A DNA stretch of 64,000 nt, from NCBI GenBank assembly GCA_018268255.1, contig JAFDWX010000005.1, positions 62,001 through 126,000 of the forward strand, written 5' to 3'. Source of the DNA: Armatimonadota bacterium. GTDB lineage: Bacteria; Armatimonadota; Fimbriimonadia; Fimbriimonadales; Fimbriimonadaceae. Numbering within the stretch: position 1 is the stretch's first letter; each line of letters opens with the position of its first letter. A program made the position numbers and the translations under genes. This document shows, piece after piece, positions 18,721 through 36,833 of the stretch. The notes beneath the pieces are model-generated. The model searched no databases and was not told where the DNA came from. It was given only the letters and a program-made list of their open reading frames with translations.

Positions 18721-18923
18721 TGAGCACCTCCCTTCTTCTCCCGGATGACCGTCTCGATACGCGCAATGTTGTGCCGTCGGATCTTCAGGCTGGCGACGTC
18801 GGTCATCTGGCGCAAAACCAGGTCGCGTCGAGCCTTATACAGGTCTGCTCGTTCTTTCTGCAGCATTTCCTCTAAATCCGGCACGCTCTTCTCGCGCAAA
18901 TCGGATGCCTTCAAGTCTTTCAT
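18717..18923 (-). CDS. rpmC: 50S ribosomal protein L29 (uL29)
   Basis: 68 residues, two-helix protein: the start [20 protein letters not shown] is followed by the family core [12 protein letters not shown] and ending [16 protein letters not shown]. It lies at the tunnel exit and contributes to the SRP and trigger factor docking area. It overlaps rplP upstream and rpsQ downstream by 4 bases each. Confidence 0.97.
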
Positions 18924-19522: not shown

Positions 19523-20309
19523 TCGGTGTTTCCTCCTTAGGTTCGGTTGCGGCAGGAGTTGCGAGCGATTCCACCTGGCCAGGAGCTGGTGTCTCTCGGC
19601 GGCGGCGCTGTCGGCGCTCTTCGGCGGCTTCCTCTTCGGCAGCTCTCATGGCGAGCCTCTGCTTATCTGGGAGAACCTCGCCCTTGTAAATCCAAACTTT
19701 CACGCCGATGGATCCGTAGATCGTGATTGCAGTGGCAACGCCGTAGTCGATGTCGGCTCGAAGCGTGTGGAGCGGGACTTTTCCCATCTTGTCCATCTCA
19801 GTTCGGGCAATTTCCGAACCGTTGAGACGACCGCTCACCATGACCTTGATTCCGCGACCGTTCATTCGCACGCTGCGAGTGATCGCTTGGCGCATACAGC
19901 GTCGGTGGCTCACGCGCTTCTCGAGCTGGGCTGCGATGTTCTCGGCGACCAGCTGAGCGTCGAGTTCGGGCTGGCGAACTTCGGTGACGTTCACCTGCAC
20001 GACGTTCGTAGGATCTTCCTTGCGAACCATGCGGTTGAGCTTGTCCGTAAGGTCGTCGATACCCTTTCCGCCGCGGCCGATGATAGCACCGGGTCGGCTT
20101 GTGAAAATGTTCACCTTGACTCGGTTGGCAGCTCGTTCGATTTCGATGCGGCTCACGTTTCCGAGACCGGATCGCTTCTTGATGAAAGCGCGGATTTTTG
20201 CATCGGAAGCGACGGCAGCTCCATAACCCTTCTTGTCGAAGAACCAGTTACTGTCGTGGCCCCGGATGACTCCGATTCTAAATCCAATTGGATGAATTTT
20301 CTGACCCAT
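19509..20309 (-). CDS. rpsC: 30S ribosomal protein S3 (uS3) with extended C-terminus
   Basis: 266 residues; about 210-230 is usual. It opens [22 protein letters not shown], has the KH domain ([14 protein letters not shown]) and the C-terminal domain ([13 protein letters not shown]). A tail of about 45 residues follows: an Arg/Glu-rich stretch ([16 protein letters not shown]), then a Pro/Glu/Thr-rich end. S3 lines the mRNA entry channel and contributes to helicase activity. The gene is 5 bases after rplV and overlaps rplP. Confidence 0.97.
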
Positions 20310-20314
20310 CGTTC

Positions 20315-20848
20315 TTAGTCCTTGTTCTCCTCGGCAGCCTCGGTGGTGGCAGGTGCCTCTTCAGTTGCAGAGTCAACCGGGGTCTCCTCTACCGGAGTTT
20401 CCTCAACTGGAGCTACTGCTTCTTCCGCCTTCTTGGATGCCTTCTTGGCCTTGGGTGCCTCGAACTTGGGTCGTGGCTTGGCCTTGGTGCCGTGCGGCTT
20501 CACCTCTCCCATGGGTTCGTAATCTTCCAGAACCACGGTGATATGGGAGGTCTTTTTGATAATTCGGTTGGCTCGGCCCATCGAGCGCTGGGTGATGCGC
20601 TTCATCCGTGGACCTTCATCGATGCTGATGCGGGCAATTCGGAGACTCTCTGGTGAGACCCGGTTGTTTTCAACAGCGTTGGCAATCGCGCTTACAAGAA
20701 CCTTCCGCAGCATTTTCGCCCCCTTGCTCGGATGGTATGCCAGCTTGTGGGCGCTCATCACCGCCGGAGATCCCTTGACCTCCGCAGCGACAAGCCGCAC
20801 CTTTCGCGGCTGCACGCGCACATATTTGGCTACTGCTCGTACTTCCAT
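20315..20848 (-). CDS. rplV: 50S ribosomal protein L22 (uL22) with acidic repeat tail
   Basis: 177 residues; about 110-120 is usual. The body carries YVRVQPRKVRLVAAEVKG, LRKVLVSAIANAVENN and the tunnel-loop region RSMGRANRIIKKTSHITVVL. The tail after residue ~120 contains PKAKKASKKAEEAV, then a Glu/Thr/Pro/Ala-rich stretch with the repeated unit VEETPVEETPV. The L22 beta-hairpin reaches into the exit tunnel and is a site of macrolide resistance. Between rpsS and this gene is a 151-base gap, unusual in this operon. The RBS is GAGGAAG about 12 bases upstream. Confidence 0.97.
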   Translation of the reverse strand: MEVRAVAKYVRVQPRKVRLVAAEVKGSPAVMSAHKLAYHPSKGAKMLRKVLVSAIANAVENNRVSPESLRIARISIDEGPRMKRITQRSMGRANRIIKKTSHITVVLEDYEPMGEVKPHGTKAKPRPKFEAPKAKKASKKAEEAVAPVEETPVEETPVDSATEEAPATTEAAEENKD

Positions 20849-20999
20849 GATGTTTAATTCGTCTTCCTCTGCAAGCGCACTTTTCTGGGAGCTCTTTGCG
20901 GTGTTGTCAAGATCGCTTTCGCACTTGGCAGGGCCTTGGATTGTACCTCTGGCGAGCCTGACTTTTCCACATTGAGCACTGGTGCCTCTGCTTGCTTCT
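20849..20999. other. 151-base intergenic gap between rpsS and rplV
   Basis: The largest gap inside the ribosomal operon. The rplV frame is open through all of it but has no start codon there, so I do not call an N-terminal extension. I see no terminator, promoter consensus or known RNA motif. It could be an RNA leader for rplV or a remnant of a lost gene. Confidence 0.4.
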
Positions 21000-21287
21000 T
21001 TAGCGGATTTTCACTCCTCTATCTGGGATCCCACCACCGTGGCCACGGTATGTTCGAGTCGGAGCGAACTCACCAAGCTTGTGGCCCACCATGTTCTCGG
21101 TTACAAAGATCGGCTGGTGCTTACGGCCGTCGTGGACGCCCAGTGTGTGCCCGATCATCTCGGGAGTGATTGTCGAGCGGCGCGACCAAGTCTTGATGAC
21201 TCGCTTTTCGCCAGCGTCGTTCATGGCGAGCACTTTCTTCATCAGGTGCTCATCCACAAAGAATCCTTTTTTGATACTTCTTGCCAT
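21000..21287 (-). CDS. rpsS: 30S ribosomal protein S19 (uS19)
   Basis: 95 residues with [44 protein letters not shown] and the C-terminal [21 protein letters not shown]19 complexes with S13 in the 30S head near the A site. Two tandem GC-rich hairpins lie in the 73 bases between rplB and this gene. Confidence 0.98.
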
Positions 21288-21310
21288 ACGCTTCTACTTG
21301 TGTTAACCAT

Positions 21311-21358
21311 CGCCCCACCTTTTGGGGCGGGCAGTGCACGGGAGCCCCGAAGGGCTCC
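21311..21358 (-). other. Two tandem hairpins between rplB and rpsS, one with a UUCG tetraloop
   Basis: Hairpin A: 21341-21347 pairs with 21352-21358, a 7-bp stem. On the minus-strand transcript the loop is C(UUCG)G, an ultrastable tetraloop. Hairpin B: 21311-21317 pairs with 21323-21329, a 7-bp stem with a 5-base loop. In transcript order A starts 2 bases after the rplB stop and B follows. Neither has a T-tract, so they look like processing or stability elements or attenuators rather than terminators. Confidence 0.65.
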
Positions 21359-21360
21359 GA

Positions 21361-22191
21361 CTACTTGTTCCTCCTGCGCACGATGAATCGATCCGTACGC
21401 TTGTTCTTGCGAGTTCGCTCACCAAGAGACTTGTTGCCCCATCGGTCCACAGGACCTTTCTTACGGCCAACAGGCGACTTGGCTTCACCACCACCATGGG
21501 GGTGATCGCGCGGAGACTTGACGACACCGCGAACGTGCGGCTTGCGACCGAGGCCTCGATTCTTACCGGCCTTACCGATCTGCTCGTTTTCGTGCTCCGA
21601 GTTCCCTACTTCGCCGACCGTTGCTCGGCAGGTGAAGTGGACCATTCGCATTTCACCGCTAGGAAGTCGAAGGGTGACATAGTGCCCTTCCTTCGCCATC
21701 ACCTGGGCGGCTGCGCCCGCACTGCGGACCATTTGGCCGCCACGTCCGGGCTGAAACTCAACGTTGTGGACCAAGGTACCCAGCGGGATGTTTCGGAGTT
21801 CCAGGCAGTTACCCGGGAGGATGTCCGAACCTTCTCCACTCTGGATCTTGGTGCCGACTCCCACGCCTTTCGGCGCGAGAATATAGCGCTTCTCGCCATC
21901 TTCGTACTGCACCAGAGCGATGCGGCAGGTTCGGTTCGGATCGTATTCGATCGCGATGACCTCTGCCTGAATTCCATCCTTCTGGCGCTTGAAATCGATG
22001 ATGCGATAGCGTCGCTTGTTGCCGCCGCCCCGGTTGAACGAGGTGATGCGACCATAGTGGTTGCGTCCACCCGATTTCTTGAGGGCTTCGGTGAGACTCT
22101 TTTCCGGCTTGCTCTTGGTGATCTCCGCGTAAGTCGAGTTGATCATGTGTCGCCGGCCGGGCGATGTGGGTTTAAACCTTCGTGTAGGCAT
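21361..22191 (-). CDS. rplB: 50S ribosomal protein L2 (uL2)
   Basis: 276 residues, standard length. It has [13 protein letters not shown] at the start, [28 protein letters not shown], the [14 protein letters not shown] strand and the C-terminal peptidyl-transferase loop [20 protein letters not shown]. It is essential for subunit association and peptidyl transfer. It lies 3 bases after rplW; two hairpins follow before rpsS. Confidence 0.98.
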
Positions 22192-22194
22192 CGG

Positions 22195-22539
22195 TTAGAC
22201 TCCGTAATCCTCCAGTAGCTGGCCCGGTGCCAAGGTGATAATCGCCTTCTTCCAATCCGGCTTCTTCCCGCTGGATCGTTGGCCGACCCGGCGAGACTTG
22301 CCCTTCATGGAAATGGTGGCAACTTTTGTCACCTCGATCTTGGCGTCTTTTTTGCCCTTGCCGGCATTGTAGATCGCCTCGACGGCAGCCTTAATTTCGA
22401 TCTTATTGGCATCCTTGGCGACTACAAAGGTGTAGCGTCGCACAGCGGTTTCGGTGGTCGCATTGGGATCGCCGTAGCTCAGTGCTACCGATCTTTCCGT
22501 GATGTGCGGTCGAAGGATGATGACATGGGGATCTTTCAT
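22195..22539 (-). CDS. rplW: 50S ribosomal protein L23 (uL23)
   Basis: 114 residues: KDPHVIILRPHITERSVAL at the start, then YTFVVAKDANKIEIKAAVEAIYN and RRVGQRSSGKKPDWKKAIITL. It forms the tunnel-exit docking site for trigger factor and SRP. I prefer the ATG at 22539, which overlaps the rplD stop (TGATGA) and has a perfect AGGAGGT nine bases upstream. An ATG three codons earlier abuts that site and is less likely. Confidence 0.96.
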   Translation of the reverse strand: MKDPHVIILRPHITERSVALSYGDPNATTETAVRRYTFVVAKDANKIEIKAAVEAIYNAGKGKKDAKIEVTKVATISMKGKSRRVGQRSSGKKPDWKKAIITLAPGQLLEDYGV

Positions 22540-23195
22540 CAGGCCCATACCTCCTCGATTTGCTTGAGCGCATCGGCTGAGACCACGATTTTGTGGGCGA
22601 TCAGCAGGTCGCGCGTGCTGAACGTGTTCGTTTTAGCGCCCTCTTCTCGACTGGGAGCCGTTCGGACGGTCACGTTCGGCAGATTTCTAAACGACTTGTA
22701 AGTCGGCACATCGACAGCCTTCACGATGACCAGAACCCGCTTGACATTCTCCACACCTACGGATTTGAGGAGCGTCGCCGCTTCTTTGGTTTTGGGTGCT
22801 GTGAACTCGATCTTATCGACGACGATCACATTGTCTCCCGCAAGCTGGGCCGACAGCGCGCCTTTGATGGCCGAGCGTCGCTCCTTCTTGTTGAGATCCT
22901 TGTCGTAGTCGCGGGGCTTGACGGCAAGCGCCATTCCACCGTGCGCGTAGTGCGGGGATCGGGTGGAACCCTGTCGAGCGTTACCGGTCTTCTTCTGGCG
23001 ATACGGCTTGCGGCCACCACCACGGACTTCGCTGCGCGTTTTGGCAGACTGCGTTCCCTGGCGAGCGTTGGCTTCTTCCGTAACGACTGCGCGGTGCAAA
23101 ACCGACATAAGCGGCTGAGCGTCGGCGATGTGTCCAGCAACTTCGTGCTTGCCCACAACCTTGCCAGCGGCGGATTTGATTTCGAGCTGTGCCAT
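22539..23195 (-). CDS. rplD: 50S ribosomal protein L4 (uL4)
   Basis: 218 residues with HRAVVTEEANARQGTQSAKTRSEVRGGGRKPYRQKKTGNARQGSTRSP-type sequence: the long basic loop reaching the exit tunnel. A Rossmann-like C-terminal part has NVKRVLVIV and LLIAHKIVVS. In E. coli L4 autoregulates the S10 operon; nothing here shows whether it does so. Its ATG overlaps the rplC stop (TAATG). Confidence 0.97.
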   Translation of the reverse strand: MAQLEIKSAAGKVVGKHEVAGHIADAQPLMSVLHRAVVTEEANARQGTQSAKTRSEVRGGGRKPYRQKKTGNARQGSTRSPHYAHGGMALAVKPRDYDKDLNKKERRSAIKGALSAQLAGDNVIVVDKIEFTAPKTKEAATLLKSVGVENVKRVLVIVKAVDVPTYKSFRNLPNVTVRTAPSREEGAKTNTFSTRDLLIAHKIVVSADALKQIEEVWA

Positions 23196-23824
23196 TAGTT
23201 CTTCACCACCTTGCTGATAACCACGAGGCCACCGTTAGGTCCTGGCACGCTGCCGTCCACCAGCACGAGATTGCGCTCGGTATCCAGCTTGACAATTTTG
23301 AGTCCCTTCTGGGTGACGGTATCGCCGCCCATCCGGCCGGGCTTTCGCGTGCCCTTAAAAACGCGCTGCGGACCCGTCGCACCGCTCGATAGCGGACGTC
23401 GGTGGGTCATGTAACCGTGCGTCATGTGCTGACCCTTAAAGTGGTAGCGCTTGACGCCGCCCTGGAAACCGCGTCCTTTGCTGGTTCCCGTAACGGTGAT
23501 GTCAATTCCTTCTTCCAGAACTTCCGCACCGAACTCCTGTCCGAGTTCGAATCCTTCGGTCTTATCGACTCGAAACTCTTTGAGGTGGCGAACGTTATGG
23601 GTAAGGCCAGCCTTTTTCAGGTGGCCAAATTTGGGCCACGAGAGATGCTTGTCGCTTTTCTCTCCATAGCCGACCTGGACTGCACTGTAGCCGTCCGTTT
23701 CAGTTGTCTTCACTTGCGTGACGAACACAGGTCCGACTTGGACTACCGTTACAGGGATGCATCGGCCTTCCTCATCGAAGATGTTCGTCATGCCGATTTT
23801 GGTCCCGAGGATCCCGGGGAGCAT
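23195..23824 (-). CDS. rplC: 50S ribosomal protein L3 (uL3)
   Basis: 209 residues: LGTKIGMTNIFDEEGRCIPVTVV at the start, KGRGFQGGVKRYHFKGQHMTHG in the central extension and GRMGGDTVTQKGLKIV near the end. It is the first gene of the block here, although in most bacteria rpsJ (S10) precedes it. A near-perfect AAGGAGG ribosome-binding site lies upstream and a sigma-70 type promoter about 130 bases further up. Confidence 0.98.
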   Translation of the reverse strand: MLPGILGTKIGMTNIFDEEGRCIPVTVVQVGPVFVTQVKTTETDGYSAVQVGYGEKSDKHLSWPKFGHLKKAGLTHNVRHLKEFRVDKTEGFELGQEFGAEVLEEGIDITVTGTSKGRGFQGGVKRYHFKGQHMTHGYMTHRRPLSSGATGPQRVFKGTRKPGRMGGDTVTQKGLKIVKLDTERNLVLVDGSVPGPNGGLVVISKVVKN

Positions 23825-24093: not shown

Positions 24094-25188
24094 ATGACTT
24101 CCGTGAGGACAGTTTCGGTCATTTGCGGTTTTCTGCTCGCATCGGCCGTTTGGGCGACACCTAAGTACGAAATTAAGGAGTACATCAGGGTCAATGGCCA
24201 TTCCATGAGCCAGGCATACGCCGCTTACAATGGCGCTGTTCAGTTCAATTTTGAGGTAGTTGGTCAGACGAACTACTATATTCGGAAGGGGGGAGTAACC
24301 ACTGATCTGTCAAGCACATACGGTCTTTCGTACTTTTATGGATCAAGCATGTCCGACACTGTTACCACCGGGATCTTCAGGCGACCAGGTAACAACACTC
24401 CAGGTCTCAGCGGCTACATTATGGGCGACTCAGTCGTCAACATCCCCTCCAATAACCCATTTTCAGGATACGTCTTTACCCGTGGCGTTAATGATGCAGG
24501 GATGCTGGTAGGTGATGACTGGGTTGGAGGTTCCTCTTTTCGCCAAATCGGCTTCATCTACAACACGCAGACCAATGGTCGAACCGACCTGCGTTTGGGC
24601 AACTACACGTTCGCCTACGGCATCAACAACTCTGGGAATGTCGCCCTCTCGGCAAGCGGCGTTGAGGGCGATGATGGCTTGGGATCAGCCTACACCTACG
24701 TGATGCACCCCGACTTCAGCTTGAAGTATTTGGGCGAAGGCAGCCCACGAGCTATCAATGATTCCGGACAAATAGCTTCGTTTTTCGGAACTCACTTCGC
24801 CTGGTATCAGGAAGGGCATGCACCGATAAGTATTAACTGGCCAAAGTTTGATTTGGCCCATATCGACGGAATCGACAACAACGGAATTATCGTTGGGAGT
24901 AATTACGGAGTTGCTTTTAATCGCGCCTTCGTGGCATCACCTGTGGACGGAGTCTTCTTCCTTGACGACATCGTCGCAAATCTACCGTCCGGTATGCACT
25001 TGTCCGACGCCATCGTAGATCGGGTCAACGGGGACATCTACGCGAAGCTGAAGACCTCAGCGGGCGCGACGACGGACATCGTTCGCCTGCAATCGGTGCC
25101 AGAACCCGCTAGTATCAGTGCGCTGGCACTGGGGATTTCGGCTCTTTTCCGTCGTCGAAGCTCCCATTCCAAACCGGAAAACGACTAA
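24094..25188 (+). CDS. PEP-CTERM sorted exoprotein with HAF-like repeats
   Basis: 364 residues. A signal peptide (VSVICGFLLASAVWA) is followed by HAF-like repeats with the INxxGxxVG pattern: GVNDAGMLVGDD, GINNSGNVALSA, AINDSGQIASFF and IDNNGIIVGSN. The C-terminus is a PEP-CTERM sorting signal: VPEPASISALALGISALFRRR. A nine-residue polar tail after the arginines is unusual. Such proteins are processed by exosortase and often associate with exopolysaccharide. No exosortase is in this window. It is divergent from the ribosomal operon. Confidence 0.88.
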   Translation: MTSVRTVSVICGFLLASAVWATPKYEIKEYIRVNGHSMSQAYAAYNGAVQFNFEVVGQTNYYIRKGGVTTDLSSTYGLSYFYGSSMSDTVTTGIFRRPGNNTPGLSGYIMGDSVVNIPSNNPFSGYVFTRGVNDAGMLVGDDWVGGSSFRQIGFIYNTQTNGRTDLRLGNYTFAYGINNSGNVALSASGVEGDDGLGSAYTYVMHPDFSLKYLGEGSPRAINDSGQIASFFGTHFAWYQEGHAPISINWPKFDLAHIDGIDNNGIIVGSNYGVAFNRAFVASPVDGVFFLDDIVANLPSGMHLSDAIVDRVNGDIYAKLKTSAGATTDIVRLQSVPEPASISALALGISALFRRRSSHSKPEND

Positions 25189-25363
25189 CAGCTCTAAGCT
25201 ACGATCAAGGGATCGCCAATGAGGTTTGGCACGGGCCGCTGAGGAGAACAACGGGCAACTCGACGAACCAGGCCTTTGCTCGTACCAACTAGGCTTCAAG
25301 CAAGTTCCAAATGCGCGAGCAAAAAGCTCTCCAAGACCCGTCATACTCGATGAAAAGCTACTT

Positions 25364-26191
25364 ATGGAAGAGATTACGGCCGAATACGGTGCCGAACAGC
25401 TCACCCCTGTTCCAGTCCTCACGACAATTCCACGCGTAACCGTTGCATGCAAGACCGACCTCGGGAGAGTGCGTGAGAACAACGAAGACAAATTCGAATA
25501 CTTTTTGACCGAGGACCCCACCGCATTGGCTTCGAGGGGCCTGATCTTCATCGTTTGCGATGGGATGGGTGGCCACGCAGCAGGGCAAATCGCCAGCGAG
25601 ATCGCCAGCAAAACCTTTATCGACGTGTACCTGCATTCGATGGGGCCAGAACCAGAGAACGCGGCGCGAATCGCGGTGACCTCGGCGAACCGATACGTCC
25701 ATGACGTCTCTCGCACCGTTCCGGGGCGACAGGGCATGGGCACCACTCTTTCAGCCATGATGCTCATCCAGGATCGAGCCGTTATCGCACACGTCGGCGA
25801 CTCTCGGATTTATCGACTGCGAGGCAGCGAAATGCAACTCCTGACGCGAGACCACACCCACGTCTGGGGCCTGGTGGAGATGGGGCTTTTGCGTGCAGAC
25901 GAGGTTGAATCACACCCCATGAAGCATGTACTCACCCGAGCGATGGGGACCGAGCCCGATGTTGCGCCACATATCGCCACAGAAACGGTGGAAGAAGGCG
26001 ATACTTACCTGCTCTGCTCTGATGGCATCATGAGCCACGTCCATGACGCCAAAATTCACGAAATCCTGGCTGCGAAAACTCCCAGTGAGGCAGCGTGGGC
26101 ACTGGTGGCCGCAGCATTACAGGGCGGAGGAACCGACAACGCCACCGCGATGGTGGTGCGGGTGGATCGCCTTGAGGCCGTAGAACCGTAA
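25364..26191 (+). CDS. PP2C-family protein serine/threonine phosphatase (Stp/PrpC-like)
   Basis: About 275 residues. All PP2C motifs are present: RVRENNEDKF, FIVCDGMGGHAAGQIAS (metal aspartate), GMGTTLSAM, VAHVGDSRIY, LTRDHT, VLTRAMG, YLLCSDGIMSHV and GGGTDNATAMVV. It dephosphorylates Ser/Thr proteins and usually opposes a PASTA or Hanks-type kinase, none of which is in the window. The start is uncertain: ATG 25364 begins about 20 residues before the domain; a TTG at 25226 would add 46 residues with no recognisable content. No transmembrane segment, so cytoplasmic. Confidence 0.93.
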   Translation: MEEITAEYGAEQLTPVPVLTTIPRVTVACKTDLGRVRENNEDKFEYFLTEDPTALASRGLIFIVCDGMGGHAAGQIASEIASKTFIDVYLHSMGPEPENAARIAVTSANRYVHDVSRTVPGRQGMGTTLSAMMLIQDRAVIAHVGDSRIYRLRGSEMQLLTRDHTHVWGLVEMGLLRADEVESHPMKHVLTRAMGTEPDVAPHIATETVEEGDTYLLCSDGIMSHVHDAKIHEILAAKTPSEAAWALVAAALQGGGTDNATAMVVRVDRLEAVEP

Positions 26192-26216: not shown

Positions 26217-28361
26217 ATGAACCCGAACAAGTTTTTCAACGCTCACCATGCACCAATGGGTGCTTTTGCGACACTGACTCTCGGATGCAAAGGGGCGCAG
26301 GGCGGAATCGCTGCTGAATTGGGCGGCCCAGCGTGCGAAAACCTCTACATCGGTCTGGCCAATCCGGACCGTCCAGGGACGTTCAGCGCACTTCCCTTTT
26401 TCGGCGGTGCCAAGGAGCAGTCCGCAGTAGAAGATTTCGACGTCGAGGGGCTGAGCGATTTTCAGCATCCCCAAGCGATCTTTGCATTCCCTGATGACGC
26501 CATCTCTCGAGATCTGGGCGCTTGTATCGATACCTGGACCGCTCCTGATCTTGTGGTTCGGATTTATTCTCCTGTGCGCCCGATCCCCAATCCGGAAACG
26601 GCTTCCAAGGATGAACTGCGGCTGGCCCTGGTTCCTGCTGTGATCGTCGAAATGGAAATCGACAATACGGATGGAACCGCCCCCCGTGATGCGTTCTTCG
26701 GGTACTCCGGCTCCGACCGGACCCGCACAATGCGGACATTCTGGAAGGACAGCACGTTTGGGATCGGACAAGGCCAACGCACTGCCATCGCGACGAAGGA
26801 GGCCGCTGCCTACTGCGGAGCAGCGTTTCAACCCGAGGCGATCCTCAACCCACGCCATCCGGAGAACGTCGATTTCACTCTGGGAAGCACTGGGCTCGTG
26901 GTGGTGAGCGTGCCTCCGGGGGAAAAGAAGACTTTGCGATTCGCAGTAGCTTGGTTCAATCAGGGCGACGCGACCACCGGACTCAAGACCCAGTATTACT
27001 ACCAGACACTGTTTGACTCCATCGAGGACGTATTGGACTTTGCGCTGGAGCAGAGCGACATGCTCATCCAGGGTTGCGGTGAGTTCGATGACCGGCTGAG
27101 CACGGGGCTTTCTCCCATTCGCGCAACCATGCTGGCCCAGACAATTAGGAGCTACTACGGCAGCACTCAACTTCTGGTGACCCAGGACGGTCAGCCACTT
27201 TGGGTTGTCAACGAGGGCGAATACCGGATGATGAACACGTTCGATCTGACCGTGGATCAGCTTTTCTTCGAACTCGCCATGAACCCCTGGACCGTGAAGA
27301 ACGTTTTGGACCAGTTTGTGGACAGGTATTCCTACCAGGACGAAGTTCGGTTTCCGGGTGATGCGACCCTTAGGCCCGGCGGGCTCACCTTTACGCATGA
27401 TATGGGGGTCGCGAACCACTTCTCCCCAGAGGGACGCTCCTGTTACGAGCAAGCTGGGTTGAAAGGTGTGTTTTCCTACATGAGCGCCGAGGAGTTGGTC
27501 AACTGGACTCTCTGCGCGTGCGTGTACGTCAGTCACACTGGCGACCAAACCTGGCTATTGAGACACGCGGCAACATTTGCGGCCGTGGCCGAGAGCATCA
27601 GCAATCGGGACCACTTCGAACCATCCCAACGAAACGGGCTGATCTCGGGCGACTCGAGTCAATGCAAAGGTGGGGCGGAAATCACCACGTATGACAGTCT
27701 GGATACCTCCTTGGGGCAAGCTCGAAACAACCTGTACCTCGCAGTCAAAACTTGGGCGGCCTATTGCCTTTTGCAGCGGCACTTTGATCACCTGGGAGAT
27801 TCGGCAAATGCTCAACTTTGTGGGACTCAGGCGGATTTGGCGGCAAAGACTTTGGTTGAGGCCAGAGGCGAGGACGGCTTCCTTCCGGCGGTGCTGGGAG
27901 AAGGCGTGGAGGCCCGCATCATCCCTGCTATCGAGGGACTCATCTTTCCTTATGTCGCAGGGCGAACGGATCTTCTGGAAGCGAACGGGAAATATGGCGC
28001 CCTGATATCGGTCCTGAGGCACCACTTTGAAAAGTGCCTCGATTCTGGCGTGTGCCGCTTTGCAGATGGAGGCTGGAAGCTCAGCTCAACAAGCAAGAAC
28101 TCGTGGCTCAGCAAGATCTATCTTTGCCAGGCGGTCGCCGAACAAGTGTTGGGATATGACCCAGATTGCAGCGCGGACTCCGCGCACTGGAACTGGCTGA
28201 TGGACGAAGACAACGTGATTTTTGCTTGGAGCGACCAGATGCTGGCTGGCAAGGCTCATGGGAGTCGATACTATCCCCGAGGCGTGACAGCAGCTCTTTG
28301 GCTGGCCTCCGGCGATGATCCGATCGGGGAGATGCAACGCACTCTGGGTGGTCAGAGCTAG
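26217..28361 (+). CDS. Beta-xylosidase, glycoside hydrolase family 52
   Basis: 714 residues that match GH52 end to end, as I recall Geobacillus XynB2: FFNAHHAPMGAFATLTLG at the start, PNPETASKDELRLALVPAVIVEM, QPLWVVNEGEYRMMNTFDLTVDQLFFEL, FTHDMGVAN, AEITTYDSLDTSLGQARNNLYL and SWLSKIYLCQ. By alignment from memory the nucleophile is E333 (in VNEGEY) and the acid/base D493 (in TTYDSLD). It releases xylose from the non-reducing ends of xylo-oligosaccharides, with retention. No signal peptide, so it acts inside the cell. GH52 is a small family. First gene of the xylan operon. Confidence 0.95.
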   Translation: MNPNKFFNAHHAPMGAFATLTLGCKGAQGGIAAELGGPACENLYIGLANPDRPGTFSALPFFGGAKEQSAVEDFDVEGLSDFQHPQAIFAFPDDAISRDLGACIDTWTAPDLVVRIYSPVRPIPNPETASKDELRLALVPAVIVEMEIDNTDGTAPRDAFFGYSGSDRTRTMRTFWKDSTFGIGQGQRTAIATKEAAAYCGAAFQPEAILNPRHPENVDFTLGSTGLVVVSVPPGEKKTLRFAVAWFNQGDATTGLKTQYYYQTLFDSIEDVLDFALEQSDMLIQGCGEFDDRLSTGLSPIRATMLAQTIRSYYGSTQLLVTQDGQPLWVVNEGEYRMMNTFDLTVDQLFFELAMNPWTVKNVLDQFVDRYSYQDEVRFPGDATLRPGGLTFTHDMGVANHFSPEGRSCYEQAGLKGVFSYMSAEELVNWTLCACVYVSHTGDQTWLLRHAATFAAVAESISNRDHFEPSQRNGLISGDSSQCKGGAEITTYDSLDTSLGQARNNLYLAVKTWAAYCLLQRHFDHLGDSANAQLCGTQADLAAKTLVEARGEDGFLPAVLGEGVEARIIPAIEGLIFPYVAGRTDLLEANGKYGALISVLRHHFEKCLDSGVCRFADGGWKLSSTSKNSWLSKIYLCQAVAEQVLGYDPDCSADSAHWNWLMDEDNVIFAWSDQMLAGKAHGSRYYPRGVTAALWLASGDDPIGEMQRTLGGQS

Positions 28362-28365
28362 AGCT

Positions 28366-30801
28366 GTGAACATTTACCGCGCAGCCCGATACGCTGACGA
28401 TGGCTATGCTGCCTGGCTTCGGTTCATGCCGCTGGATTCTGAGTACTCGGGGCCAAGAGAGATCGTCGTCGAATGCCAAGACCGACTCGCGTGGACCGCT
28501 GCCCAGGAGCTTCAATTCGGCTTGGAATGTCTCTATGGCGAGTGTTTGGAAATCGGCACTGGGCCGTCACTTTCGGCTTACGTCCTACGGATTTCGGCAG
28601 ATGCCAGGCTGGTTGAAGACGGATTCTGTATTCGCACGGAAGGCAAAAACCGAATCATCGAAGCTACCAATCCTCGAGGGCTGCTGTACGGGGTCTTTTC
28701 TCTGCTCAGGGCAACCGATACTCGCCAGTTCCCCAAGGAGCAGCCATGGATCGAGAATCCTTCGGCGCCGATCCGATACTTGAACCACTGGGACAATCTC
28801 GATGGGTCCATTGAGCGAGGCTACGCTGGTCGGTCCATTTTCTATGGCGATGATGGCCAGATCACGGGTGAGCTGGATCGGGTTCGAGATTACGCGCGGC
28901 TCCTGGCGAGCGTCGGGATTAACGGATGTTCGATCAACAACGTCAACGCCGACGACCGAATCTACTCGACCGAAGGCTTATCTGTGGCAGCTCGATTGGC
29001 CAGCGTTTTCCGTGAGTTCGGAATCCGCATCTTGATTTCCGTGAGCCTCGATTCGCCAGTTCGACAAGGTGGTTTGAATACCTTCGATCCCCTAGATCCT
29101 GGCGTGAATGCGTGGTGGAAAGCCAAGGCCGCTGAAATGTACCAAGCCATTCCCGATATGGCTGGATTGCTCATTAAGGCTGATTCCGAGGGTCGGCTCG
29201 GACCCTCCGCATATGGGCGCACCCATGCCGATGCCGCAAATCTCCTGGCCCGTGCGGTTCGACCTCACGGCGGGATGGTGTTTTATCGCGGCTTTGTCTA
29301 CAACCACACCATGGACTGGCACGACAGGAAGCTGGATCGTGCCAAAGCACAGCAAGAAAATCTCCAACCGCTGGACGGTCTTTTTGATGAAAACGTGGCC
29401 ATCCAGATCAAGAATGGACCGATTGATTTTCAAGTACGCGAGCCCGTTTCACCGACCATTGGATCGCTGGAGAAAACGCCCAAGGTGATCGAGCTCATGA
29501 TCACGCAGGAATATCTTGGACAGCAACATCATTCGGTTTACGAAGTTCCTTGGTGGAAGAATTCGCTCGATTTTGACTTTGAACTGAACCATCATTCGGC
29601 TACCCAAGATATTGTGACGGGCAAGACGTTCGGTCACCGAATGGGTGGCTTTGTTGCCGTTTGCGGTGTTGGGCGGAGCATAAACTGGATGGGAAACGAC
29701 CTCGCCCAAGCCAATCTCTACGGCTATGGACGACTAGCCTGGAATCCGAACATATCGGCCGAGCAAATCGCAGAGGAATGGGTCGCACAGACATTCTCGC
29801 GCGACAAGAAATGTGTCGCTGAGGTTCGAGCTTTGCTGATGGATACTTGGCCCACTTACGAGCGCTACACCGGCAACTTAGGCATCGGTGGCCTAACCGA
29901 CATCATCCATGTTCACTATGGCCCCGCGCCGGAGAGCAGCGAGCACAACGGCTGGGGACAATGGCATCGCAGCGATGCCACGGGCACAGGCATGGACCGC
30001 ACCATTCGGTCTGGTACTGGTTTCACTGCTCAGTATCCGGCGAAGGTCGCCACGCAGTTTGAAAATCTGGAGACTTGTCCCGAGGAGCTCCTCCTGTTTT
30101 TCCACCACGTGCCTTATTCGCATCGACTGAAGTCTGGGAAGACCGTGATCCAGCACATCTACGACGAACATTATCGTGGAGCTCAGGAAGCATCAAGGTT
30201 TGTGGATCGATGGAAGGGAGTTCGGCAGCACGTCGATCGAAAAAGGTGGCTCGATGTTCTGGGCCAACTCGAATACCAGGCTGGCCACGCGGTGGTGTGG
30301 AGAGATTCCATCTGCTGGTATTTTCACCGTCTCTCTGGCATCGCGGACAGTCTGGGCCGAGTCGGCAACGAACCTCATCGGGTGGAATGCGAATCGATGA
30401 CGCTCGACGGGTACGAGATCGTCAACATCGAACCTTGGGAGGCTGCGTCGGGAGCTCGTGCGATCCGGCTCCGGGGAGATGCTGGATCGTGCCAGACCGC
30501 CGTGGATTTTGACCCTGGCAGATTCAAAATCCACACTTGGTTCTTCGACCTGCCGGGCAATGCTCGTTTTGAGTTGAGAATCAACGATAACCCAGTGGAT
30601 CAGTGGACCGCCGACATGGGGTTGCCGAGCGAAAAGCTGGATGCGCACACTCGGCAACGGCACACCACTGGACCGCTATCCCTTGCACAGGGAGATGTGG
30701 TGTCTATCCACTGCACCGCCGACAAAGGCGATGTCGCCGCTCTCGATTTTCTTGAATTCGAACCTGTCTCACACCAACCCATTGGAGTACCTTTGAACTA
30801 A
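28366..30801 (+). CDS. Alpha-glucuronidase, glycoside hydrolase family 67
   Basis: 811 residues. It carries the GH67 signature MIN-type YLNHWDNLDGSIERGYAG, SVGINGCSINNVN, IKADSEGRLGP, IQIKNGPIDFQVREPVSP, LAQANLYGYGRLAWNP and LFFHHVPYSHRLKSG. Catalytic residues match family positions: acid E275, and D354/E382 of the base pair. It removes 4-O-methylglucuronic acid from the non-reducing end of aldouronic acids. About 110 extra C-terminal residues (from VECESMTLDG) look like a beta-sandwich or carbohydrate-binding add-on. The start is GTG 28366, 4 bases after the GH52 stop; an ATG at 28315 would overlap that gene. No signal peptide. Confidence 0.95.
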   Translation: MNIYRAARYADDGYAAWLRFMPLDSEYSGPREIVVECQDRLAWTAAQELQFGLECLYGECLEIGTGPSLSAYVLRISADARLVEDGFCIRTEGKNRIIEATNPRGLLYGVFSLLRATDTRQFPKEQPWIENPSAPIRYLNHWDNLDGSIERGYAGRSIFYGDDGQITGELDRVRDYARLLASVGINGCSINNVNADDRIYSTEGLSVAARLASVFREFGIRILISVSLDSPVRQGGLNTFDPLDPGVNAWWKAKAAEMYQAIPDMAGLLIKADSEGRLGPSAYGRTHADAANLLARAVRPHGGMVFYRGFVYNHTMDWHDRKLDRAKAQQENLQPLDGLFDENVAIQIKNGPIDFQVREPVSPTIGSLEKTPKVIELMITQEYLGQQHHSVYEVPWWKNSLDFDFELNHHSATQDIVTGKTFGHRMGGFVAVCGVGRSINWMGNDLAQANLYGYGRLAWNPNISAEQIAEEWVAQTFSRDKKCVAEVRALLMDTWPTYERYTGNLGIGGLTDIIHVHYGPAPESSEHNGWGQWHRSDATGTGMDRTIRSGTGFTAQYPAKVATQFENLETCPEELLLFFHHVPYSHRLKSGKTVIQHIYDEHYRGAQEASRFVDRWKGVRQHVDRKRWLDVLGQLEYQAGHAVVWRDSICWYFHRLSGIADSLGRVGNEPHRVECESMTLDGYEIVNIEPWEAASGARAIRLRGDAGSCQTAVDFDPGRFKIHTWFFDLPGNARFELRINDNPVDQWTADMGLPSEKLDAHTRQRHTTGPLSLAQGDVVSIHCTADKGDVAALDFLEFEPVSHQPIGVPLN

Positions 30802-30805
30802 AGCC

Positions 30806-31837
30806 ATGACATTGCTGCTCGCTACCGCATTTCTCGCCCTGGGTGTCGGAGCGGTTGAATCCGCTCCCGTGTCGCTCAGACTCGCTGCCGCTAAGCACAA
30901 GATGCGGATCGGCACAGCAGTCCCGGTGGGAGCACTCGATGATTCCCCATTCACCAAACTGGTCGCCACTCATTTTAATGTGGTCGAACCAGAGAATGAG
31001 ATGAAGATCTACGGGCTTACTAAAGGTTATCGCGAGTTCGACTTCACTAATGCCGATAAGATTGTTGCATTTGCACAGAAGAACAAACTAGAGGTTCGTG
31101 GTCACACGCTGTTCTGGCACCTTTATCCTTCGCAATGGCTTGTGCAAGGCAACTATAACTCTTCGCAACTCACTGAGATAGCGAAGCACCACGTTGATAC
31201 CGTTTTAGGCCACTTCAAAGGGAAAGTCAGAGAGTGGGATGTTCTCAATGAGGCGTTCGGGAATAAAGGTGAACTTGTGGATTCCATCTGGTTCAACAAT
31301 CCAGGAATCGAGGCCAGCGGGAACAAGTATGCCTATATCGAAAAGATGTATCGATGGGCACACGAAGCCGATCCCAAGGCACGGCTCTACTACAACGATT
31401 TCATGTGCGAAATGGTTAACACAAAATCCGACGCGATGTATGCAATGGCTCAAGATTTCATAGCGCGTAAGGTGCCTCTCCACGGCATCGGATTCCAATG
31501 CCACTTCGACATGCAATTCAACCAAGAGGTCCCTCTCAGATCATTCCAAGAAAACCTCCGACGGTTTAAGAAAATCGGCATGGATATTCAGATCACAGAG
31601 CTGGATGTTCGTATTCCCAACAACAGTTCAGAAATGCTCCAAAAACAAGCCGACCTCTATCATAAAGTGATGAAAATTGCCGTCGCTGAAGGAGTCTCGC
31701 TGGTACAGCTGTGGGGGTGCACCGATAAGTACTCCTGGGTACCGAGAACGTTCAAGGATCAAGGCTGGGCCTTGCCTTGGGATGATCGATACCAGCCGAA
31801 ACCAGCGGTACAGGCAATCCTGGATGCGTTGAAATAG
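30806..31837 (+). CDS. Endo-1,4-beta-xylanase, glycoside hydrolase family 10, secreted
   Basis: 343 residues. A signal peptide (LLLATAFLALGVGAVESA) precedes a compact GH10 barrel. Landmarks: FNVVEPENEMK, VRGHTLFWH, REWDVLNEAF with acid/base E149, and DIQITELDVRI with nucleophile E265. No carbohydrate-binding module. It cuts xylan backbone and leaves xylo-oligosaccharides, some with glucuronic acid, for uptake. The ATG is 4 bases after the GH67 stop, so the three xylan genes form one operon. No transporter or regulator of xylan use is in the operon. Confidence 0.96.
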   Translation: MTLLLATAFLALGVGAVESAPVSLRLAAAKHKMRIGTAVPVGALDDSPFTKLVATHFNVVEPENEMKIYGLTKGYREFDFTNADKIVAFAQKNKLEVRGHTLFWHLYPSQWLVQGNYNSSQLTEIAKHHVDTVLGHFKGKVREWDVLNEAFGNKGELVDSIWFNNPGIEASGNKYAYIEKMYRWAHEADPKARLYYNDFMCEMVNTKSDAMYAMAQDFIARKVPLHGIGFQCHFDMQFNQEVPLRSFQENLRRFKKIGMDIQITELDVRIPNNSSEMLQKQADLYHKVMKIAVAEGVSLVQLWGCTDKYSWVPRTFKDQGWALPWDDRYQPKPAVQAILDALK

Positions 31838-31882
31838 CGACTCGACGGGCACAAATTGAAAGACCATGGCCAAAATGGGCGT

Positions 31883-33268
31883 ATGGCTCATTCGATCCAG
31901 TTTCAGGGTGCAGCAAGGACCGTTACAGGAACCAAGCACCTTCTTCGTGTCGGCACAAAGCAGATTCTCTTGGATTGCGGCTCCTTCCAAGGAGCGAGGG
32001 AGTTGCGCGACAGAAACTGGGAACCATTTAACTTCGATCCGGGTGAGATCGACGCGGTGGTCCTCTCGCACGCGCACCAGGACCACATCGGGATGCTGCC
32101 CAAGTTGGTTAAGGATGGGTATCGCGGACCGATCTACTGCACCAAAGCCACAAGGGGTCTGTGTGCGATATCGTTGCCGGATTCAGGACGGATTCAAGAA
32201 GAAGACGCCTATCATGCGAACAAACGTGGATCGCGCCATCAGCCAGCGTTGCCGCTGTACACGGAGCAAGATGCCTACGCTGTGATGAAGCAGCTCAAAA
32301 CGGTTCCATACCACCAGTTCATCGATCTTCCAGGTGGCGTGAAGTTCCGCTATTTCAGCTCGGGCCACATTTTGGGCTCCGCCTTCATCGAGTTGTACTT
32401 TGAAAACGGGCAGAAGTTGGTCTTCTCAGGAGATCTGGGGCGATACGACACACCGATTATCAAGGATCCGGAGGTCATGGATTTCGCCGAGTTTCTGGTG
32501 ATCGAGAGCACCTACGGCGATAAGCTTCACCCCACAGTGAACCCCGAGGACATGCTGGCCGAAGTCATCCACGAGGCCGTGGATCGCCACAGTGCCTTGC
32601 TGGTTCCCAGCTTTGCGATTGGCCGAACCCAGGAACTCCTGTACCATCTTCGTCGCCTGCAACTGGCCAATCGAATCCCGCGCATTCCCATTTATGTGGA
32701 CAGCCCAATGGCGACGAGCACAAGCGATCTCTATGGGCGAAGCAACGAAGAGTGGGACGACGAGATGAGCCTGATGGTGCAGCAAGATTTTGACCCCATC
32801 GAACCCGAGGGACTCCAGTACGTGCGCGATCGAAATATGTCGAAAGCACTCAACGTGCAACAGGGACCGATGGTAGTAATCGCAGGCAGTGGGATGGCTA
32901 ACGGCGGACGCATTCAGCACCACTTGCTTCATCGCCTTTCCGATCCGGACGTCCAGGTTCTGTTCACCGGATATCAGGCTACGGAAACTCTCGGTCGGAG
33001 GCTGTTGGACGGTGCCGATCGGGTTTGGATTTTTGGCAATGAGGTTGAGGTGCGCGCCAAAATTTCGCGCCTCACTTCGCTGAGCGCTCACGCCGACCAA
33101 GGCGAGTTGATGAGGTGGCTCTCAGGATTCAAATCAGCTCCCAAAAAGACGTTTATCGTGCACGGCGAGCCCGAAGTCCAGGACATTTTTGCCGCCAAAT
33201 TGCGCACCGAATTGGGCTGGGAAGTGGCTATCCCCGAGCATATGGAAGAGTTCTCCTTGGATATCTGA
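31883..33268 (+). CDS. Metallo-beta-lactamase / beta-CASP exonuclease-like RNA-processing protein
   Basis: About 461 residues. MBL motif SHAHQDHIGMLP, the LDCGSFQG strand, GHILGSAF, SGDLGRYDTPI and ESTYGD are followed by a beta-CASP domain (VPSFAIGRTQELLYHL and IAGSGMANGGRIQHHL) and the C-terminal SLSAHADQGELM and FIVHGEP. This is the archaeal/bacterial CPSF- and Ysh1-like family, probably a ribonuclease. I prefer ATG 31883 over a TTG at 31856. It lies 45 bases after the xylanase stop, so it may be co-transcribed. Confidence 0.93.
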   Translation: MAHSIQFQGAARTVTGTKHLLRVGTKQILLDCGSFQGARELRDRNWEPFNFDPGEIDAVVLSHAHQDHIGMLPKLVKDGYRGPIYCTKATRGLCAISLPDSGRIQEEDAYHANKRGSRHQPALPLYTEQDAYAVMKQLKTVPYHQFIDLPGGVKFRYFSSGHILGSAFIELYFENGQKLVFSGDLGRYDTPIIKDPEVMDFAEFLVIESTYGDKLHPTVNPEDMLAEVIHEAVDRHSALLVPSFAIGRTQELLYHLRRLQLANRIPRIPIYVDSPMATSTSDLYGRSNEEWDDEMSLMVQQDFDPIEPEGLQYVRDRNMSKALNVQQGPMVVIAGSGMANGGRIQHHLLHRLSDPDVQVLFTGYQATETLGRRLLDGADRVWIFGNEVEVRAKISRLTSLSAHADQGELMRWLSGFKSAPKKTFIVHGEPEVQDIFAAKLRTELGWEVAIPEHMEEFSLDI

Positions 33269-33303: not shown

Positions 33304-34374
33304 ATGAGCAAATCCAAACCGACCGGTCAAGGTGATCAGCTCGATCCGCGCAAACAGATGATCTTGCGTGCGGTCGTGTTTGAATACGTAACGGGTGCCG
33401 AACCAGTCGGGAGCGAATTGCTCACCCAGAAGTACGAGCTTGGAGTCCGGTCAGCTACAGTACGCAACGAATTGGCGGAGATGAGCGATCTCGGCTATTT
33501 GGACCAGCCCCATACCAGTGCCGGTCGCATTCCCAGCGACCTCGGGTACCGGTATTTTGTCGACCACATGATCGTGTATCGCGATCTGGGGCCACACGCC
33601 AAGCGTCAGGTTCAAACCATCACTCGAGACGGCGAGCTTCTCCAAACACTCCTCACTGAGACCACGTCTCTTCTCAGCCGACTCACCCGGCTGATGAGTG
33701 CGGCGACGACGATTACCAATCAGCACCTTCGAGCCAAATCTGCGATGCTGACTGCGCTTGGACCCGACCGCGCCCTTGTGGTCCTGGTCCTCAGCAACGG
33801 GCACGTGGAAAACAAGCTGGTCGAGTGTCCCGAGGGAATGACGCTTGCTCACATCGGACGAGCAAATAACGAACTGATGGGGTTGATCAATGAGAAGTCC
33901 TTGACGGAGTTGGTGAGCTTGAGCAGTGCGACTCATCATTCTTCTGACCCCGCCTATGATCGCCTCATGCACAATGTTCTGCACGTGATACAGAGCATCT
34001 GCCGAGACCTCACGAAGGGGAAAATCATCGTCGAAGGCGAGGAATATCTCTTTGGGCAGCCGGAGTTCATGCGTGATCCCGCGCCTCTCCAGCAACTTCT
34101 CCAGCACATCGAAGATAGGGGCACGGCAAGTTTGGCCACATCCAAAAAGGATGAGCACGGTCTGGATGTTAAAATCGGCAAGGAAAACAACTTGCAGGTT
34201 TGGAAGCAGTTTGCGGTGATTCGCCATCCATTCTTTGTGGGAGATCAGGAGATGGGCAATCTGACCATTGTTGGCCCAACCCGCTTGGATTACGAATCGA
34301 ATATTCCTTTGCTGACTTATGCTGCACAGGCTGTCAGTGATACGCTGACAAAAATCTTCGGCCCGGGCAAGTAG
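33304..34374 (+). CDS. hrcA: Heat-inducible transcription repressor HrcA
   Basis: 356 residues with the HrcA winged-helix start (LDPRKQMILRAVVFEYVTGAEPVGSELL, VRSATVRNELAEMSDLGYLDQPHTSAGRIPSDLGYRYFVD) and the GAF-like C-terminal domain ending IVGPTRLDYESNIPLLTYAAQ. HrcA binds CIRCE operators of the groESL and dnaK operons and needs GroEL for folding. Those genes are not here: two phage genes follow instead of grpE-dnaK. Autoregulation via a local CIRCE is not evident. Confidence 0.96.
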   Translation: MSKSKPTGQGDQLDPRKQMILRAVVFEYVTGAEPVGSELLTQKYELGVRSATVRNELAEMSDLGYLDQPHTSAGRIPSDLGYRYFVDHMIVYRDLGPHAKRQVQTITRDGELLQTLLTETTSLLSRLTRLMSAATTITNQHLRAKSAMLTALGPDRALVVLVLSNGHVENKLVECPEGMTLAHIGRANNELMGLINEKSLTELVSLSSATHHSSDPAYDRLMHNVLHVIQSICRDLTKGKIIVEGEEYLFGQPEFMRDPAPLQQLLQHIEDRGTASLATSKKDEHGLDVKIGKENNLQVWKQFAVIRHPFFVGDQEMGNLTIVGPTRLDYESNIPLLTYAAQAVSDTLTKIFGPGK

Positions 34375-34415: not shown

Positions 34416-35696
34416 ATGCAGACATTTCTCAGTTCGATTGCGGACGTATGGCATCCGCACGAGGGCCAACGGGAGTTTCTCTTGAGAACCGAGCACGTCA
34501 AAGTGCTGGCATGCGGCCGCCGATGGGGCAAGAGCGAGGCGTGCGCCATCGCTATTCTTCATCGACTTTTGGGTCAAGAGAGGATCGAGAAGATCCTGCT
34601 GATTGCCCCGACTCTCATTCAATCCCAAATCATTTTTGAGCGGATCTTGGAACTTCTGCCTGACATCACGGAAGAAAAGCCCATCGTCAAGCGCGGCCCC
34701 TATCCATCGATCCAGTTGTTTGGTAACGTACTCCGATCCCGCAGCGGTGTGATCCAGAGGAACCTGCGTGGTTTGGGGGCAACACTCATCGTGGTGGATG
34801 AGGCGGCGTTCGTTCCTGAGTCTGTAATTACCGATGTCGCGCTGCCGATGCTCGCCACAACCAACGGCGACCTGATTCTCATCTCCACTCCCCACGGCAG
34901 AAACCACTTCTGGAAATTCTTTATGATGGGCCAGAGCGAAGGAGGAAAAATCTGGTCGAAAACCGCACCCAGTAGCGAGAATCCGAATGTGACTCGGGCG
35001 TTCCTCGATAATCAAAAGGAACTGGTTTCGGAGAGGGTGTTTCTGGTGGAATATGAAGCCTCTTTCCTGGAGGACTCAACCCAGGTCTTCCCCGATGAAA
35101 GCGTTACGGCAGCGATTCGGCCGATTGTGGTCCACGCGGAAGCACCCACACGCATTGGGATCGACTGGGCTCGGTACACCGACTACACGGCTGTGGCTGT
35201 GGTCCAAGGAACTCGATCGCAAGCCAACTTGGTGGCCCTACATCACTGGACGGGAGTCGGCTGGACCGAGCAAATTGACCGGGTGGCAGATATCGTGGCC
35301 CATTTTCCCGAAGCAAAGGTCACCTGTGACGCAACGGGGATGGGCGATGTGGCACTGGAAATGCTCCGCAAACGGCTCGACGAGAACGTCGTGGAGGGCG
35401 TCGTCTTTACGACGAGAACGAAGTCGGATCTGGTGGATGGCCTCGCTTGGATGTTCGAGAACCGAGCATTGGCCATTCTGCCGCATCCCGAGTTGCAGAA
35501 AGAACTGAGCTACTACAGAGCGGAGTCCAAGGGTTCTCGAACTGAATTCGGTGGCGCAGGTGGCGTTCATGACGATCTAGTTACGGCTCTGGCACTGGCT
35601 GTTTCGGCACTTCCGAGGCATGAGCATGTTGGCATCGCCGTTGGTTGTCCGCGCAAGTTCTCACATGGGACCGAGCGGCGATTGCTCACCTATTAG
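34416..35696 (+). CDS. Phage terminase large subunit (TerL)
   Basis: 426 residues with both TerL domains. ATPase: Walker A-like ACGRRWGKS (K39), Walker B TLIVVDEAAF (D128/E129) and coupling motif ISTPHGRNHFW. RNase H-like nuclease: IGIDWARYTD (D250), VTCDATGMGD (D305) and GVHDDLVTAL (D386/D387). All catalytic residues are intact. It resembles the Mu gp28 style. Only a portal follows; no capsid, protease or integrase genes are in the window. It sits 41 bases after hrcA. It may be a prophage remnant or a domesticated packaging unit. Confidence 0.93.
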   Translation: MQTFLSSIADVWHPHEGQREFLLRTEHVKVLACGRRWGKSEACAIAILHRLLGQERIEKILLIAPTLIQSQIIFERILELLPDITEEKPIVKRGPYPSIQLFGNVLRSRSGVIQRNLRGLGATLIVVDEAAFVPESVITDVALPMLATTNGDLILISTPHGRNHFWKFFMMGQSEGGKIWSKTAPSSENPNVTRAFLDNQKELVSERVFLVEYEASFLEDSTQVFPDESVTAAIRPIVVHAEAPTRIGIDWARYTDYTAVAVVQGTRSQANLVALHHWTGVGWTEQIDRVADIVAHFPEAKVTCDATGMGDVALEMLRKRLDENVVEGVVFTTRTKSDLVDGLAWMFENRALAILPHPELQKELSYYRAESKGSRTEFGGAGGVHDDLVTALALAVSALPRHEHVGIAVGCPRKFSHGTERRLLTY

Positions 35697-35699
35697 TCT

Positions 35700-36833
35700 A
35701 TGGCCGATAGGAACTCTGATGGACAATTTTGTGCGCAGTGGCCCGCAAGGGTGATGAAGTTGTTTTCTAAACTGAAAAACTTGCGGACGCAACGAGAAAT
35801 TCCGCAGTTGACGGCAACCGAACGGATGGCTCAGGAAATGCCCGGGGTTCCGCCGAATTCGCTTCCCTACTCCGCGTACACCGCGATGGAGCAGGACTCG
35901 ATGGTTCACACCGCTCTGGTAACGAAAAAATTGGCTGTCCTAAGCAGCCGCTGGAGTATCGAAGCCGACGACGAAACACCTGACGCCGAAGAGAGAGCCC
36001 AATTCGTGAGGCACAACCTGGAGAGAATGCAGGGCTCGGCATCTTCCATCCTCAGGAATGCGATGGATGCGTTCGCTCGGGGCTGGTCCATTCAGGAGGT
36101 GGTCTATCGCCTGGAGCAAGGTCGCTTGTGGATCGAGTCCGTCGTGCCAAAGAACCCGTCTCTGTTCGGACTTGAGCTGAGTCCTTCTGGAAGACCGGCT
36201 GGATTGACCCTACAAGTTCCAGGCGAATCTTGCCAGAAGGTGCCGATCGCAAAGTTCGTGGTGTACCGAAACAAGGCTGGCTACGATGCTCCCAAAGGGC
36301 GAAGCGATCTTGATCCCGCCTACCCGCATTGGAAATCCAAGCAGACTCTCCTTAGCGCCTGGAAGGCTCACATGGAGCGCTATGCCTCGCCCACGGTCAT
36401 GGCCCGATTTCAACGCGGGGTGAGCTCCTCAGAGCAAGAAGGCATGCTTTCCGCGCTCAGGCAACTGCGCGACAACACAGCGATCATCTTCCCGAACGAC
36501 ATCGATGTCAGCACGCTCGACGGCCAGTCTCAGGCTAGTCAGGGATTCATGGATGCGATCGAGTTCCACAATCGCGAGATTGCGCGGTGTGTTCTGGGCC
36601 AGACGCTCACCACAGACGAAGGTCGGAGAGTCGGTTCTCTCGCCTTGGGAAAGGTTCATCTCCAAGTCATGCTGCTCCAAATCAACGCGATTCGGAGAGA
36701 GTTGGAGGACGAGGTCATGACCGAGCAAATCATCCGACCTCTGATCGAACTGAATTACGGCCCAGGAAAAATCCCTCGGTTTCGATTCGAAGAGATCGTT
36801 CTGGACGCTTTTTCAACCGGAGCGATCAGTTGA
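35700..36833 (+). CDS. Phage portal protein, DUF935 / Mu gp29-like
   Basis: 377 residues. Features of DUF935 portals: HTALVTKKLAVLSSRWSIEA, FARGWSIQEVVYRLEQGRLWIESV, the KFVVYRNKAGYDAPKGRSDLDPAYPHW segment and RCVLGQTLTTDEGRRVGSLALGKVH. Mu gp29 is about 510 residues; this one ends soon after the LQINAIRREL...RPLIELNYGPGKIPRF region, so it is shortened by about 100 residues at the C-terminus. It is 3 bases after the terminase. Its last 8 bases overlap a convergent lipoprotein gene. The start may be ATG 35700 or ATG 35754. Confidence 0.88.
   Translation: MADRNSDGQFCAQWPARVMKLFSKLKNLRTQREIPQLTATERMAQEMPGVPPNSLPYSAYTAMEQDSMVHTALVTKKLAVLSSRWSIEADDETPDAEERAQFVRHNLERMQGSASSILRNAMDAFARGWSIQEVVYRLEQGRLWIESVVPKNPSLFGLELSPSGRPAGLTLQVPGESCQKVPIAKFVVYRNKAGYDAPKGRSDLDPAYPHWKSKQTLLSAWKAHMERYASPTVMARFQRGVSSSEQEGMLSALRQLRDNTAIIFPNDIDVSTLDGQSQASQGFMDAIEFHNREIARCVLGQTLTTDEGRRVGSLALGKVHLQVMLLQINAIRRELEDEVMTEQIIRPLIELNYGPGKIPRFRFEEIVLDAFSTGAIS

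Follow-up and report, generated by a model that had tools for sequence, protein, structure and literature searches.

A compact GH52, GH67 and GH10 xylan gene set in an Armatimonadota genome includes an alpha-glucuronidase with a predicted CBM-like tail

Three xylan-enzyme genes in close succession

The stretch of DNA that we analysed (64,000 nucleotides from a genome of the Armatimonadota, hereafter the window) carries genes for a GH52 beta-xylosidase, a GH67 alpha-glucuronidase and a GH10 endo-xylanase that follow one another on the same strand (Table 1). The original prediction, made from the sequence alone, had named these three families and a spacing of four bases, and both points were borne out: Pfam profiles matched far above their curated cut-offs, solved enzymes of the same families were found, and the gap is 4 bp at both junctions, with the GH67 GTG at 28366 following a GH52 stop that ends at 28361 and the GH10 ATG at 30806 following a GH67 stop that ends at 30801. 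At the NCBIfam cut-offs, none of the three enzymes received a name. The source genome (3.19 Mb in 9 contigs, completeness 98.5%), whose same-family relatives include records named Fimbriimonas or Fimbriimonadaceae, contains one member each of GH52, GH67 and GH10 by profile search, and the trio comprises the only members of these families detected in it. The three genes are a real xylan set and not a chance grouping.

Table 1 Features of the xylan locus and its flanking genes (window coordinates).
Feature	Position	Strand	Description
PP2C-type phosphatase gene	25226..26191	+	PF13672 (5e-12); ends 25 bp upstream of the GH52 gene; unrelated to xylan use
GH52 beta-xylosidase gene	26217..28361	+	714 aa; no hydrophobic N-terminus; catalytic E333, D493 (by alignment)
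GH67 alpha-glucuronidase gene	28366..30801	+	811 aa; GTG start; no hydrophobic N-terminus; presumed catalytic E275, D354, E382
GH67 C-terminal tail	30361..30798	+	residues 666-811 (146 residues), after the GH67 C domain; predicted CBM6/35/36-like beta-sandwich
GH10 endo-xylanase gene	30806..31837	+	343 aa; hydrophobic, export-like N-terminus; presumed catalytic E149, E265
beta-CASP metallo-hydrolase gene	31856..33268	+	PF10996, PF07521; starts 18 bp (TTG) or 45 bp (ATG at 31883) past the GH10 gene
hrcA	33304-34374	+	PF01628; next after the beta-CASP gene

The GH52 protein matches PF03512 with an E-value of 7e-161 (536 bits against a cut-off of 25) and the solved GH52 enzyme 4c1o with 767 bits over its full length (residues 3-699). 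Both residues on which the GH52 assignment had been staked are intact, E333 and D493 aligning with Glu357 and Asp517 of 4c1o, which are the catalytic residues of that enzyme (PMC6887791). The window protein is a beta-xylosidase by family, and as such would be expected to release xylose. Its GH67 neighbour exceeds the cut-offs for all three GH67 domains (PF03648, PF07488 and PF07477; N, M and C) and scores 651 bits against the Geobacillus structure 1mqp. At a constant offset of 10, its E275, D354 and E382 correspond to Geobacillus E285, D364 and E392, which we take to be catalytic. For the GH10 protein (PF00331, E = 5e-89; 248 bits against the solved 1xyz), E149 lies in the motif WDVLNE and E265 in ITELDV, and these are presumably its two catalytic glutamates.

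Only the GH10 enzyme has an export-like hydrophobic start (MTLLLATAFLALGVGAVESA; hydropathy 2.41), with no positive charge ahead of the hydrophobic segment, and an N-terminus of the same type (MVTTTLLACALGVAAIADP) is found on the GH10 enzyme of a sister locus in SZAS-4 (G117). Judged by this hydrophobicity and by the like N-terminus of the sister enzyme, export of the GH10 enzyme is likely, and the three proteins are best read in line with the division of labour originally proposed, in which the xylanase works outside while glucuronidase and xylosidase stay inside.

The 4 bp gaps argue for co-transcription of the trio. Because the PP2C, beta-CASP and hrcA genes adjoin on the same strand, transcription may extend beyond the trio, possibly taking in the PP2C gene, and the trio may not have a promoter of its own; a scan of the locus for promoters and terminators returned fewer sites than in shuffled sequence. 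No transporter or regulator gene lies between the trio genes, as had been claimed, and a Pfam scan of 33 further genes in the window revealed no dedicated transporter or regulator of the kind found in Bacillota loci. In a same-genus genome (G144) the beta-CASP gene and hrcA are adjacent and the genome lacks GH52 and GH67, which indicates that the window trio sits among unrelated genes. We also looked around the beta-CASP gene of 29 relatives for an empty site; in none of them did a PP2C gene lie beside it within ~1.5 kb, and we therefore claim no clean insertion scar.

The C-terminal tail of the GH67 enzyme

The GH67 protein does carry the extra C-terminal region that had been predicted, its length being 146 residues rather than the roughly 110 first given. 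Searched against Pfam with E-values up to 10, the tail gave no credible match and no CBM family, and no solved relative was found by sequence. When a profile of the tail was run across the phylum, G083 and G088 were the only other genomes with a full-length copy. Four weaker matches elsewhere in the phylum (E 5e-6 to 7e-4) were not accepted as kin of the tail because they lie in long proteins unlike GH67, in genomes that have no GH67 match. In a tree of GH67 proteins the window enzyme and the tailed enzymes of G083 and G088 form one clade (100/100 support), which stands beside the GH67 enzymes of Bacillota and apart from those of other Armatimonadota, on long branches that make its exact placement unsure. 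The Bacillota enzymes, in contrast to that of the window, have no tail and end near residue 665-690 (six loci inspected), and the tail was apparently gained once, in the tailed lineage.

Single-sequence structure prediction for the whole GH67 protein reached a mean pLDDT of only 36.5. Structure prediction of the tail, proposed earlier as a check, gave an all-beta, CBM-like fold in the form of a two-sequence AlphaFold2 model of moderate confidence (pLDDT 71, pTM 0.70). With this model, Foldseek placed CBM6E first (1.9e-7), with CBM35 (8.9e-7) and CBM36 close behind, and VIA-align gave Z scores of 13-15 to CBM6, CBM35 and CBM36, equal to those for other proteins with the same sandwich. The tail is accordingly modelled as a CBM6/35/36-like beta-sandwich, a predicted fold in common with these modules but with no sequence match to the Pfam CBM profiles. 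Among the structure matches are a CBM35 solved with glucuronic acid and a CBM36 solved with xylotriose, ligands that suit a GH67 partner, and the tail may well bind sugar.

The failure of every Pfam CBM family to match, the equally high VIA scores of unrelated proteins with the same sandwich and the missing export signal of the GH67 enzyme could also point to a structural or oligomer-forming domain that has the CBM fold and does not bind carbohydrate. We regard this as a credible though not the favoured account of the tail, since Foldseek ranks carbohydrate-binding modules highest, some of which were solved with glucuronic acid or xylotriose bound. A CBM-like domain is unexpected on a protein that has no signal peptide, and we count it against our preferred account, in which the GH67 enzyme is cytoplasmic. 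The fold is typical of binding modules on secreted enzymes, and neither an uptake system nor the standard sugar-use isomerases could be tied to the trio; the GH67 enzyme, and perhaps the GH52 enzyme, might then act outside the cytoplasm after non-classical export or release, with the tail tethering GH67 to xylan or to the cell surface. Such a location is quite unlikely, given that none of the three tailed GH67 proteins has a signal-like N-terminus, that their nearest kin are Bacillota GH67 enzymes, related members of which in Geobacillus and Paenibacillus are described as intracellular, and that the sister locus has an ABC permease gene ahead of GH52.

Related loci in Armatimonadota and Bacillota

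The idea that GH52 is known mainly from Geobacillus and its relatives, part of the original prediction, proved outdated because of three observations. GH52 is present in 38 of 291 Armatimonadota genomes, 2 of them with fragments (a count that leaves out further weak and partial profile matches); a scan of the window GH52 against 84,980 species genomes returned 299 encoding stretches, the best 80 of which are mostly from Bacillota but also from Armatimonadota and from one bin labelled Chthoniobacter; and GH52 occurs within a xylan region of a published Rhizomicrobium genome (PMC11596606). GH67 is rarer than GH52, with 13 genomes over the cut-off.

Close relatives have the same plan with swapped parts. 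The nearest relative of the window GH52, which nests among Armatimonadota GH52 enzymes, is that of SZAS-4 (99% support in the tree), where an ABC permease gene, GH52 and GH10 follow one another with gaps of 7 and 15 bp. G088 (L052/L103) shares with the window the order GH52-GH67 and the tailed GH67, but its third gene is GH8; the gaps there measure 11 and 28 bp, and ~1.5 kb upstream lies a LacI-type gene. G083, which has no GH52, has its tailed GH67 gene directly behind a glucuronoyl-esterase-like gene. In G090, G092 and G097, GH52 lies beside genes for a LacI-type regulator, KDPG aldolase, a sugar kinase, UxuA and a divergent isomerase-like protein, joined in two of the three by a short-chain dehydrogenase; neighbours of this LacI, kinase and UxuA type are absent from the window trio. 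LacI-type genes were found at 18 of the 36 GH52 loci fetched. The question of transport left by the original prediction is partly resolved by these loci, through the permease gene 7 bp upstream of the sister GH52 and the LacI-type regulators near GH52 in other relatives. We note that two of the divergent, glucuronate-isomerase-like genes, L041:11242-12513 (with a weak NF002794 match, 9e-5) and L045:12269-13561 (no Pfam match, with the HxH motif DLHTHLF visible), occupy a place near GH52, next to short-chain dehydrogenase and sugar kinase genes (and UxuA in L041), where a standard UxaC would be expected.

Gene sets of this kind are not new: GH52 stands next to GH67, GH10 or both in Paenibacillus, Geobacillus and Halalkalibacter. 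Paenibacillus genomes have GH52-GH67 pairs, and Halalkalibacter urbisdiaboli and Gorillibacterium timonense have GH52-GH10-GH67, that is, the families of the window side by side but in a different order. The hemicellulose utilization locus of Geobacillus has the same three enzyme families (GH10 XynA1/XynA2, GH67 AguA and GH52 XynB2), which act in a scheme of extracellular GH10, uptake, and then cytoplasmic GH67 and GH52 (PMC4194401). In Geobacillus they are dispersed across a large locus that also contains uronate genes and several ABC transporters, and GH67 has no tail, whereas the window set consists of just three genes, including the exported-type GH10, with neither a transporter nor a regulator. 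The aldouronate utilization cluster of Paenibacillus sp. JDR-2 also groups GH67, GH10 and a beta-xylosidase (PMC4765114), but its clustered GH10 is intracellular, its xylosidase belongs to GH43, ABC transporters and regulators accompany the enzymes, and the exported GH10 is encoded elsewhere.

These comparable pairs and triplets, together with the grouping of the window GH67 with Bacillota enzymes and away from other Armatimonadota GH67, raise the idea that the entire trio was acquired from Bacillota as one block. We find this very improbable: the window GH52 falls within the Armatimonadota as sister to SZAS-4, the gene order and the exported GH10 are not as in Bacillota, and the tailed GH67 proteins are a separate, long-branched clade.

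A proposed route for glucuronoxylan

Taken together, our analyses make it quite probable that the three genes serve as a small set for the degradation of glucuronoxylan, working through an exported GH10, an unlinked transporter, and cytoplasmic GH67 and GH52. The exported GH10 enzyme would cut glucuronoxylan outside the cytoplasm into xylo-oligosaccharides, some of which would bear (4-O-methyl)glucuronic acid on the end xylose; the transporter would import these products, after which GH67 would take off the uronic acid and GH52 would liberate xylose. The tail would most likely help to hold the oligosaccharide that bears the uronic acid, or to hold together the enzyme's oligomer. This route draws support from the association of like enzymes in Bacillota and from the swapped partners in close relatives; against it stand the lack of a transporter or sugar regulator beside the trio, the isomerases that were not found, the longer same-strand gene run around the trio, and the missing positive charge at the GH10 N-terminus.

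That uptake must be supplied from elsewhere, as originally proposed, is compatible with the rest of the genome, in which 8 ABC binding proteins of sugar type, along with one candidate GPH-type symporter, score over the cut-offs away from the trio; none of these can be tied to xylan. One of the ABC clusters adjoins a SASA-type esterase gene and a GH2-like gene. With respect to the released sugars, the class II xylose isomerase (TIGR02630) was found neither in the source genome nor in the two others of its genus, and 10 of the family's 23 genomes with GH52 lack it; a search of the source genome for the standard glucuronate isomerase (PF02614) was likewise negative. These absences do not prove a new pathway, because a class I xylose isomerase might score too low to be picked up by TIGR02630 and because relatives carry the divergent isomerase-like gene, which Pfam does not recognise. 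Were they real, the genome would suggest that methylglucuronic acid or xylose is used in a way not recognised so far. A cytoplasmic alpha-glucuronidase with its own uronate-binding CBM-like module, combined with routes for xylose and methylglucuronic acid that do without the standard isomerases, is in our estimation unlikely.

The locus represents a well-studied xylan scheme in a poorly cultured phylum, cut down to one enzyme per family genome-wide. What appears to set it apart from an ordinary set is the CBM-like tail on a GH67 enzyme that has no export signal, an uncharacterised domain whose role is directly testable, and the apparent lack of the usual sugar-use genes.

Several other features of the window deserve mention. 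The same-strand run that leads into the trio begins with a gene (24094-25188, plus strand) whose 364-residue product looks secreted and has a PEP-CTERM sorting motif that scores at the cut-off or slightly under it. Right after hrcA (34416-36833, plus strand) lie two phage-like genes, one for a phage-type large terminase subunit (phrog_2, 2e-42) and one for a portal protein of Mu type (PF06074, 9e-66), with no other phage genes recognised nearby. The same pair occurs near hrcA in G144, and a terminase gene lies beside the beta-CASP gene in G110; the pair looks like a conserved element, perhaps domesticated or gene-transfer-agent-like. Among the row of minus-strand ORFs at 18920-23824, none of the 7 tested matched a PHROG. 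Further upstream (12003-14780, minus strand), a protein of 925 residues with an adenylate/guanylate cyclase-like domain, an AAA ATPase region and many TPR repeats is a large signalling or regulator protein.
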